From NCBI GenBank assembly GCA_016198185.1, contig JACQJD010000080.1, positions 1 through 56,183 of the forward strand: DNA of 56,183 nucleotides, read 5' to 3'. The stretch comes from Deltaproteobacteria bacterium. Its GTDB lineage: Bacteria; Bdellovibrionota; JACOXK01; 2-02-FULL-40-11. The translations under genes were made by a program, and so were the position numbers. Positions 3,193 to 51,510 of the stretch are shown here, piece by piece. The notes beneath the pieces are model-generated. The model did not search any database. It worked only from the letters and a program-made list of their open reading frames with translations, and was not told the DNA's origin. Position 1 is the stretch's first letter, and every line of letters starts with the position of its first letter.

Positions 3193-4818
3193 TTAATCGA
3201 TGAGATCTAAAAGAGTTTGCCCGACTTTGGTGCTGTGAATATATCCAGAAAATTTTTTGGAAATTTTGGAAGGCCCATAAGACATGATCGGGACGAGGGT
3301 GGATGTATGCGTGCCGGTGCCCCACACCACTTGTTGTTCTTTGGCCATGGCCCGACCCATTAAATTGCACCGGTTTTCAAAACCATACACATAAAATTCT
3401 TTAAAATCATGAATTTTGGGCATCTCTGGATCTCCCAAATATTCATGGTCTTTGATAAAAAAGGTATTGGGTTCTGTTTTTAAAATATTTTGGGCATCTT
3501 CTAAAGAAATTTTAAATTCGCAGTTCTCATTTGTAAGCTTTTGGAGCGCTTGCGGCTTTTGTTCCATTTTAGCAAGTGCTTCAAATTCTTCTAAAATTTT
3601 CTCAAAACTCTTTTTCTGTTTAAAAATCCGATCCAAAACTTCTGGATTTCCAAAGTTAAATTTTGGTGCATACCATGCATTTTTCATGGCATCCCCAGAA
3701 AGAGCTTTTGGTGGAGGTACATTGTTTTTAGAATAACTCAATCCAAACCCCCCTGTTTCATGGTCTGCTGTAACGATTAAAAGCGTATCCCGCCTTCCAG
3801 AAATCCAGTCCATCACGCCACCGATGGCTTCATCAAACGCTAAAAGTTCATGAAGCATCATTCCGGTATCATTATAATGACCGGCATAGTCAATGAGCCC
3901 CCCTTCGATCATTAAAACAAAGCCATGCTTATTTTTTGATAGGACTTCGAGTGCTTTGAGGGACATTTCTTTTAAAGAAGGATAAGGAAAATTCGAGTCT
4001 TGTTGATAAACCCTGGTATCGATCACATAGGGTAAATTGCTGACATCAAAAAATCCCAATACTTTGGCGTGATGGGAAGCGGAAAACGTTTCTAACGCTT
4101 GCCGAGAATAAAGAATGTCATAGCCTGCATTTCTAAATTCTTGAATGAGGTTTCGATCATCTTTTCGCTTGGAAACCAACATCAGCGGTATTTTTTCATT
4201 TCCCATATCCAAATTTTTTGGCAAAAAATGCCGCAGCCCCCCAGCAAAAGCAACGTCGGGTTTTAGCTCTAAAAGATCGAGTGCAATTTCATTTTCAAGA
4301 GAACGATGACGTTGGTGCGCATAGAACCCTGCAGGCGTTGCATGCGTCATTCGCGTATTGGTCACAAAACCAACTGCTTTTCCATGCCGCTTGGCCTTTT
4401 CCAACACCGTTTCACGGCGATTTCCTTCATGGTCTAACCCGACCATCTCTGCACGGGTCCAAGCACCCGTTGCAAGCTGTGTCGCAGAGCCAGCAGAATC
4501 GGTCACCAAATTCTGATGGATGTACGTCCCCATCAGTCCCAGCTCCCCCTCCTGCATCAGCCTCTCCAAATTTAACGTGGCATCCTGGATAGCAGAACCG
4601 GGTGCTTGCTTGGCATATTGCATGGCCAAAGAAATCTGTTGTGGCCCCATGCCATCTCCAATCATCACAATAATATTCTTTGGCCTAAGCGGATTTAAAA
4701 AGAAAAAATAAATCCAAAAGAGCGAAAACAAACTCACCAAAATGAAAAGAGAAACAATAAATTTTCTGAAATTACTGGTGCACGGCTGTACGGAAACACT
4801 CGTAATAAACATGAGCAA
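3193..4818 (-). CDS. Alkaline phosphatase (PhoA family)
   Basis: N-terminal membrane segment; NIIVMIGDGMGPQQ, TDSAGSATQLATG and TADHETGGFG motifs typical of alkaline phosphatases. Confidence 0.92.
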   Translation of the reverse strand: MLMFITSVSVQPCTSNFRKFIVSLFILVSLFSLFWIYFFFLNPLRPKNIIVMIGDGMGPQQISLAMQYAKQAPGSAIQDATLNLERLMQEGELGLMGTYIHQNLVTDSAGSATQLATGAWTRAEMVGLDHEGNRRETVLEKAKRHGKAVGFVTNTRMTHATPAGFYAHQRHRSLENEIALDLLELKPDVAFAGGLRHFLPKNLDMGNEKIPLMLVSKRKDDRNLIQEFRNAGYDILYSRQALETFSASHHAKVLGFFDVSNLPYVIDTRVYQQDSNFPYPSLKEMSLKALEVLSKNKHGFVLMIEGGLIDYAGHYNDTGMMLHELLAFDEAIGGVMDWISGRRDTLLIVTADHETGGFGLSYSKNNVPPPKALSGDAMKNAWYAPKFNFGNPEVLDRIFKQKKSFEKILEEFEALAKMEQKPQALQKLTNENCEFKISLEDAQNILKTEPNTFFIKDHEYLGDPEMPKIHDFKEFYVYGFENRCNLMGRAMAKEQQVVWGTGTHTSTLVPIMSYGPSKISKKFSGYIHSTKVGQTLLDLID

Positions 4819-4870: not shown

Positions 4871-4955
4871 CCCATATCTTGAGATCACATCTTCAGGGAG
4901 TTGGAACGATGGCTCTATATCCCCAACCCCTGAAGATGTGATCTCAAGATATGGG
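4871..4955 (+). repeat. Family-1 conserved-loop hairpin, copy 1
   Basis: Inverted repeat CCCATATCTTGAGATCACATCTTCAGGG with perfect 28 bp complement, then GTTGG/CCAAC closing an 18 nt loop AACGATGGCTCTATATCC. Core shared with 51371-51455. Confidence 0.9.
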
Positions 4956-5009
4956 GAATTGATTGCAAAGATATATTTGATTTAGTAAATTTTTACGAAG
5001 GTATCGATC

Positions 5010-5732
5010 GTGCTTAAAAAACGACCACTTTTGTTTTTGGGCATTTGTGTAGGCATTTATTTTTTGAGCTTTCAGGCAATGTCATTGCCTTTGGCTGAAA
5101 AAGAAACGGCCCATCGTTTAAGTTATCATTTCAACCAACTTTATGATCAGGCCAAAAATCAACGCTGGAAGCAATCCGGACTTAATCTCGGCATTGGTGC
5201 ACTCACGGGCGCAGGTGCCGTTGCCACCTATTACTCTGGAAATGAAAAAACCAAACAAGTAGGCGTCCCTGCTCTCGGTATTTTAAGTGGTATTTTTACT
5301 TTCTATGGAGGATATCTTTTCTTTTCCCCCTCTCCATATGAATCTTGGCTTTCAAATTATCGAAATTTATCTGAGATCCGTGATCCAACCCAACGCAAGG
5401 TAAAAGTGCATTTGGCAGAACAGGAACTTAAATCTTTGGCCCTTCGCAAACGCACCGAACGCTTACTTGCGGCCAGCAGTTATACGGCTTCGGGACTTGG
5501 CATCTTGGGATGGTACACCACCCAAAATCAACGGGACTCTCAATCATTCCTGTTATACCAAAGTGTCGTAATGACCATGGCAGGATTATTTCAATTATTT
5601 CAAAAAAATGACGTTGAAACACAATACCGTTCTTACGAGGAGTGGAAAAAGAATCATAGAACGATCGTCCACTCAAACGCCCCTTCCATTTCACTCACGC
5701 CTGAAGGCCTCACCGCTACACTCTTTTTTTAA
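5010..5732 (+). CDS. Hypothetical membrane protein
   Basis: 240 aa ORF, signal/TM segment at N-terminus and several hydrophobic stretches. Confidence 0.65.
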   Translation: MLKKRPLLFLGICVGIYFLSFQAMSLPLAEKETAHRLSYHFNQLYDQAKNQRWKQSGLNLGIGALTGAGAVATYYSGNEKTKQVGVPALGILSGIFTFYGGYLFFSPSPYESWLSNYRNLSEIRDPTQRKVKVHLAEQELKSLALRKRTERLLAASSYTASGLGILGWYTTQNQRDSQSFLLYQSVVMTMAGLFQLFQKNDVETQYRSYEEWKKNHRTIVHSNAPSISLTPEGLTATLFF

Positions 5733-8885: not shown

Positions 8886-8950
8886 GCCCACTCCAGAATC
8901 TTTCTGAGGCGGCATTGTATTTTCGAGCCTCAAAGATATTTTGGAGTAGC
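8886..8950 (-). repeat. Family-2 conserved-loop hairpin, copy C (loop motif reads on minus strand)
   Basis: CCACTCCAGAATCTTTCTGAGGC pairs imperfectly with GCCTCAAAGATATTTTGGAGTAGC; loop plus closing stem GGCGGCATTGTATTTTCGAGCC is the reverse-complement form of 23329-23349. Confidence 0.75.
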
Positions 8951-19105: not shown

Positions 19106-19235
19106 AGGGCTGTTGAAAATGGCCCAGGGACGCCGCACCTGAAGGTGCGCGGCCCCCCCCTGAGGCGTACTTGTGATGAGTACGTTGAGGCAGACACGAC
19201 GAGCGACGTAGATACGGGCTATTTTGAACAGCCCT
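19106..19235. repeat. Intergenic inverted-repeat (MITE/REP-like) element
   Basis: Termini AGGGCTGTTGAAAATGGCCC / GGGCTATTTTGAACAGCCCT; internal CGCACCTgaAGGTGCG and CGTACTtgtgatgAGTACG hairpins; no transposase. Confidence 0.8.
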
Positions 19236-23289: not shown

Positions 23290-23388
23290 ATTTACAAAGC
23301 TGAGTTTGGCAGCTTGTGATTTCTCTGTGGCTTGAAATGCAATGCCGCCACAGAGAAATCACAAGCTGCCCGACTGCGCTTTGTAAAT
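23290..23388 (+). repeat. Family-2 conserved-loop hairpin, copy A
   Basis: Outer arms ATTTACAAAGC/GCTTTGTAAAT; 24 bp perfect inner stem GGCAGCTTGTGATTTCTCTGTGGC (23308-23331 with 23347-23370); 15 nt loop TTGAAATGCAATGCC. Confidence 0.9.
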
Positions 23389-31993: not shown

Positions 31994-32021
31994 TTGACAT
32001 CTTTGCCTTTATTTGTATAAA
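31994..32021 (+). promoter_or_regulatory. Candidate sigma70 promoter of the HNH-like gene
   Basis: TTGACA-16 nt-TATAAA upstream of the 32101 ORF. Confidence 0.6.
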
Positions 32022-32100
32022 ATTTTGGTAATTCTTATATGTCGAAAATAGGGTTCGGCGTTTCTACAAGTCACCTTAAATGACTTACTAAGGAGGAGAT

Positions 32101-32592
32101 ATGCAAAATAGGGTCGTCGTTGCTATCGTAAAGGCGTGTTTTGTTATTGCCTTTTCTTTAACGGTCACGCTGGCTTTCTCATACCCCTTGATCCCTGATC
32201 CAGAAATCACCCAGGGAGATCTTTGCACAGAAGATAACCCTGATTTTGCAAAGTATCGGTATCAAGAAAACATCCCTTATTGTCAACGTAACGTCAGCAA
32301 AGCCAGACGAGAAAAAATCTATGAAAAATACAATATCCCCTCCCATTGCAGATATCTGTATACGATAGATCATTTTATTCCACTCTCTATTGGCGGTAGC
32401 AATGCGGATCAGAATCTTTGGCCAGAACATGTTTTGGTAAAAGCCACACGGCCAAAGTTAGAAGAGGAGATTTACCTAGCACTGGCACAGGGAGAATTAA
32501 ACCAACAAGAAGCAATCGATATTATTATCAAAGAGAAAACCACAGAGCAACAAAGCCCCCCGGATAATAACAGCAAAGGTGAATGTAACTAA
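32101..32592 (+). CDS. Exported HNH-like nuclease
   Basis: Signal peptide; YTIDHFIPLSIGGSNADQNLWPEH resembles the HNH motif; strong AAGGAGGAG RBS. Confidence 0.75.
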   Translation: MQNRVVVAIVKACFVIAFSLTVTLAFSYPLIPDPEITQGDLCTEDNPDFAKYRYQENIPYCQRNVSKARREKIYEKYNIPSHCRYLYTIDHFIPLSIGGSNADQNLWPEHVLVKATRPKLEEEIYLALAQGELNQQEAIDIIIKEKTTEQQSPPDNNSKGECN

Positions 32593-51308: not shown

Positions 51309-51370
51309 AATAATAAATTTCTTACCTCGCTAGGGATTATTCAAAAAGATAATCCTTAAGTACAGTCTAT

Positions 51371-51455
51371 ACCCATATCGCAGATCTCTCCTTCTAGGAG
51401 TTGGAACGATGGCTCTATATATCCAACCCCAGAAGGAGAGATCTGCGATATGGGT
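51371..51455 (+). repeat. Family-1 conserved-loop hairpin, copy 2
   Basis: ACCCATATCGCAGATCTCTCCTTCT with perfect 25 bp complement; tip GGAGTTGGAACGATGGCTCTATATATCCAACCCC shared with copy 1. Confidence 0.9.
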
Positions 51456-51510
51456 AATAATTGAAAATGCCTTTGGAAGGCTATGTCTATGAGATATTAT
51501 CTTCTTGCCC

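Follow-up and report, generated by a model that had tools for sequence, protein, structure and literature searches.

A hairpin with a long, perfectly paired stem lies at positions 4871-4955 of the window (the whole stretch of 56,183 nucleotides analysed here), and a second copy of it further along has the same tip and a different stem. The question raised by this locus is how the two arms of such a stem can change from copy to copy and still match each other.

The two hairpins of the window

The preliminary description had listed an 85-nt hairpin with a 28-bp stem, a bulged A, a GTTGG/CCAAC closing helix and an 18-nt loop, and all of these parts were confirmed. The partner copy is real as well and has tip and base in common with copy 1, but it extends over 51370-51456 and is thus one pair longer than the 51371-51455 given before. 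Both belong to a family termed F1 and are composed as follows:

4871-4898, plus strand: left arm of F1 copy 1, 28 bp, perfectly paired (28/28)
4899, plus strand: bulged A of copy 1, conserved in most F1 copies
4900-4927, plus strand: conserved F1 tip of copy 1, with the closing helix GTTGG/CCAAC (4900-4904 / 4923-4927) around the 18-nt loop AACGATGGCTCTATATCC (4905-4922)
4928-4955, plus strand: right arm of F1 copy 1
4956-4966, plus strand: flank GAATTGATTGC, outside the stem and common to other F1 copies
51370-51398, plus strand: left arm of F1 copy 2, paired 28/29 (A51396 unpaired with C51430)
51399-51427, plus strand: bulged A and conserved tip of F1 copy 2
51428-51456, plus strand: right arm of F1 copy 2

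The folding energy of copy 1 was -63.7 kcal/mol compared to a mean of -24.1 kcal/mol for shuffled sequences. None of 200 shuffles reached this value, which lies 12.4 standard deviations below them (z about -12). The stems of copies 1 and 2 differ by six substitutions and one indel, all matched on both arms. The earlier wording that each change is matched was a slight overstatement, given the unmatched A.C at 51396/51430 in copy 2.

Copy 1 is located between two divergent genes, as described before, namely an alkaline phosphatase ORF on the minus strand (3193-4818) and an unassigned ORF on the plus strand (5010-5732). On inspection, no T run was seen 3' of the stem in copy 1 or copy 2. With divergent ORFs on either side and no T run after copy 1, a simple terminator is indeed unlikely. 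Rfam models gave no match at 4871-4955; elsewhere, only a purine riboswitch was recognised (RF00167, 60.5 bits, window 32013-32110).

Two dispersed families of palindromic elements

Copies 1 and 2 had been described as a pair that might reflect coincidence or a single recent duplication if no others existed. A covariance model found F1 at 17 loci of the 1.77-Mb source genome (a 92%-complete assembly of 93 contigs, with stretches reading N at L070:17640-20000 and L121:3482-4615), and a DNA search of the genome gave 15 matches. Being a palindrome, the element matches the model on both strands at most F1 loci. A second and larger family, F2, has the same design and another conserved tip (GGC, a loop near TCGAAATGCAATGCC, GCC). 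Its model gave 82 strand matches, equivalent to roughly 55-60 loci, and F1 and F2 together comprise about 75 copies in the genome. F2 is represented in the window by the following hairpins:

23308-23370, plus strand: F2 hairpin with a 24/24 stem and the 15-nt loop TTGAAATGCAATGCC; its outer arms (23290-23388) are 90% complementary
8888-8949, minus strand: older, less perfect F2 hairpin with 17/21 pairs

A de novo search for hairpins with a score of at least 18 yielded 68 in 1.68 Mb, i.e. 14 of F1, 42 of F2 and 12 others. Both families thus account for 56 of these 68 long hairpins, with a few of their entries overlapping or sitting in duplicated stretches. Stem lengths across F1 and F2 range from about 19 to 39 bp. 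Neither the F1 nor the F2 model had a match in 58 other genomes, relatives included, and under stricter filters the F2 model had none in 378 further genomes of a phylum sample. The exact F1 tip pattern was absent from viral contigs and from a collection of 85k species, which perhaps does not include the source genome.

Nearly full-length F2 copies measure 165-166 bp (166, 166 and 165 bp in a terminus scan of three copies) and carry GGGCTGTTGAAAAAGGCC at both termini as terminal inverted repeats. An alignment of the F2 copies of L143 and L145 extends over 181 positions, with GGGCTGTTGAAAAAGGCC near both ends and no pairing in the spacer that separates termini and stem. The longest unit common to F1 copies measures about 145 bp, and terminal repeats were not recognised in it. 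A target-site duplication was not obvious by eye in the alignments of close pairs. Both families are short, dispersed and devoid of an own transposase gene, as is characteristic of MITEs. We conclude that F1 and F2 probably represent the cores of non-autonomous, MITE-like palindromic transposable elements that have spread through the genome; a mobile palindrome was among the readings offered earlier, and the F2 termini support it.

The 165-166 bp copies of F2 resemble MITEs with DDE-type terminal inverted repeats in their matching termini. To our knowledge, MITEs do not usually have a variable stem in their centre whose arms evolve in concert. The only DDE_Tnp_1 gene found in the genome (L144, G000:C90, about 984-2313) has GAGGCTGTCGAA inverted repeats on both sides, which are similar, not identical, to the F2 ends. 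Its apparent link to F2 is only a resemblance of these ends. REP/RAYT elements are, like F1 and F2, dispersed intergenic palindromes. This identity was rejected, as the 92%-complete genome yielded no Y1_Tnp (RAYT-type) gene; REPs measure 20-40 bp (PMC3733652).

F3, a third repeat, measures about 122 bp, has termini like those of F2 and was observed at window 19107-19234, in L056, L105, L080 and others. Its outer ends vary between copies and look matched within a copy. A fixed C/G difference between the arms persists in F3, and the window copy has it reversed.

Most F1 and F2 copies lie between ORFs according to a simple longest-ORF caller, whose gene calls are crude. The arrangement of neighbouring genes around the copies showed no clear preference. 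F2 copies between same-strand genes are oriented with the genes in 7 cases and against them in 13, so that no clear orientation emerges. Two perfect F2 stems are located in frame inside purL (L078:150-2583). This ORF has 811 codons and aligns to PurL (3viu) in two segments, and the palindromes fall in the stretch 385-471 that lies unmatched between them.

Concerted change of the arms and its rate

Pair cells with two-sided changes numbered 36 in F1 and 206 in F2, compared to only 1-6 and 27-38 in slid-register controls; wobble cells numbered about 5 and 10, respectively. Two-sided changes affected 13 of 23 pairs in F1 and 20 of 24 in F2, with far lower values for the controls. Some F2 copies have an extra base pair, inserted on both arms. 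The share of mismatched cells was 4.0% in F2 and 8.4% in F1, i.e. the F1 arms are not all kept perfect. Among the mismatches, G.T and A.C occurred 5 versus 4 times in F1 and 11 versus 18 times in F2, in total 16 versus 22 (binomial p 0.42), so wobble was not preferred. Nearest-neighbour pairs of F2 copies differed by 145 two-sided and 48 one-sided changes; the ratios of transitions to transversions were similar in stem (58:84) and loop (15:24). In the F2 copy of L047, two mismatches have a derived right and an ancestral left arm, and in its sister L053 both arms are derived. The tips and the innermost stem pairs are conserved in sequence, and therefore some constraint exists.

In 12 close copy pairs whose flanks could be aligned, two-sided changes affected 49 of 314 stem pairs (0.156 per pair) and one-sided changes 9 (0.014 per site), while the flanks diverged by 0.157 per site. 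Stem pairs thus changed at the rate of the flanks (0.156 versus 0.157), which are perhaps not strictly neutral. Transitions and transversions were distributed alike in stem pair changes (28:21) and flanks (55:44). The 12 pairs are few and some copies were used in more than one of them; because of this sharing, three non-overlapping pairs are given separately, with 6/80 two-sided and 2/80 one-sided changes and 13/203 changes in the flanks. Flank neutrality was assumed in the rate comparison, and F2 termini are conserved, so the flanks may not be neutral. This assumption and the independence of the pairs are the weakest points.

A two-site model in which conversion is 50-100 times as frequent as mutation gave two-sided changes of 0.14-0.15, one-sided changes of 0.03-0.07 and mismatches of 2-4%. 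With independent arms, the values were 0.025 two-sided and 0.265 one-sided. A model in which pairing is selected, adjusted to yield 4% mismatches and kept simple (weak mutation, no tunnelling, a single selection strength), gave 0.004 two-sided. According to these models, a two-fold error from flank neutrality would not close the gap between conversion and selection. The matched changes had been ascribed to either selection or a copying mechanism acting on pairing. Copying is supported by arms that change in concert at the flank rate, by the lack of a wobble preference and by the conversion model. Selection on pairing is not, as its simple model gives 0.004 compared to 0.156 observed.

Proposed arm-to-arm correction and its alternatives

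Judged by the sequences, F1 and F2 are probably palindromic MITEs in which both arms change together through hairpin-templated arm-to-arm correction, i.e. template switching. Each element keeps a short conserved tip and a variable stem. After insertion, one strand would fold as a hairpin, the intermediate of an in-place conversion, and a mutation in one arm would then be copied to the other arm or erased. Therefore, the stem would drift at the ordinary mutation rate yet stay self-complementary. The copying would most plausibly be polymerase template switching (quasipalindrome correction), and conversion between the arms may be unbiased. Loop inversion is another expected trace of template switching. 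The flanks of L053:17057 score better when reversed; both flanks resemble each other, so loop inversion is ambiguous in this case. It is doubtful, though conceivable, that the conserved tip itself promotes the copying, in which case these would be selfish palindromes that preserve their ability to fold back by recruiting a factor or stalling the polymerase at the tip. Loss of SbcCD was considered as the cause of long-hairpin survival and rejected: an SbcD-like match below the cut-off is found in the source genome and relatives alike.

Selection could also act on DNA structure: a protein would recognise the extruded structure, hairpin or cruciform, together with its tip, and broken stems would be lost or repaired by a second mutation. 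The conserved tips agree with this, a missing wobble preference would likewise be expected, and a protein-recognised tip is conceivable because the loop sequences are conserved. It is nonetheless unlikely in view of two-sided changes about 37 times above the simple selection model at the observed mismatch level, of stems that persist inside purL and of the lacking preference for a gene context.

Matched stem changes are normally read as strong evidence for functional RNA. A small RNA, terminator or mRNA stabiliser selected for pairing would be in line with the stable folds, the strong covariation and the mostly intergenic copies, as called by the simple ORF caller. Yet G.U was no more favoured than A.C, whichever strand is read (16 versus 22), F2 runs with same-strand genes in 7 cases versus 13 against, the hairpin has no overlapping Rfam match, no T run comes after the copy 1 stem and two copies reside inside the coding gene purL. 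The structured RNA put forward in the preliminary description is disfavoured by these in-frame copies, by arms changing at the flank rate and by the absence of wobble and orientation preferences, and we regard it as improbable.

The stem might also be perfected only at transposition, when one arm serves to rebuild the other, and remain uncorrected afterwards. The elements are mobile, and new copies would have matched arms in this way, too. However, the flank divergence of 6.4% since duplication in the three non-overlapping pairs predicts about 10 one-sided stem changes, whereas 2 were seen along with 6 two-sided ones, which makes this explanation very improbable. Chance or an alignment artefact behind the matched arms, for which one could say that hairpins may attract attention, is practically negligible as shuffles and slid registers fall far short.

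Arm-to-arm copying has counterparts in other systems. Template switching was proposed to create and repair pairing in RNA hairpins, one arm being copied from the other (PMC8794818); it was inferred there in RNA genes under selection, whereas F1 and F2 are dispersed and bear no sign of RNA selection. Mitochondrial genes of Nematomorpha contain coding palindromes, perfect inverted repeats with no excess of imperfect ones, for which active repeat conversion was suggested by the authors (PMC6649704). Their location in coding genes is similar to F2 in purL. Unlike F1 and F2, they are mitochondrial, reach up to 284 bp and do not form a dispersed family with a conserved tip, and the flanks of F1 and F2 provide an internal clock. 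Rickettsia palindromic elements (RPE) are short mobile palindromes with in-frame insertions in genes (PMC10969869). The two F2 copies in frame in purL are RPE-like, while most F1 and F2 copies are intergenic. According to work cited in PMC6649704, the arms of RPE become less identical with time, whereas the arms of F1 and F2 stay matched.

About 75 dispersed copies, some of them with flanking clocks, have strong covariation of a kind that arm-to-arm copying reproduces and a simple selection model does not. If this reading is true, template-switch conversion could be measured on natural sequences of a bacterium, and searches for new RNAs by covariation would call for caution.

The relative G002 has few long hairpins in 346 kb. 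A small family whose 46-nt loop is conserved was observed there (L283 and L279) and in L291:

L283:7125-7216: copy of the 46-nt-loop family
L283:3867-3958: copy of the 46-nt-loop family
L279:19208-19295: copy of the 46-nt-loop family
L291: copy of the 46-nt-loop family

The stems of this family differ between copies and pair perfectly or nearly so.
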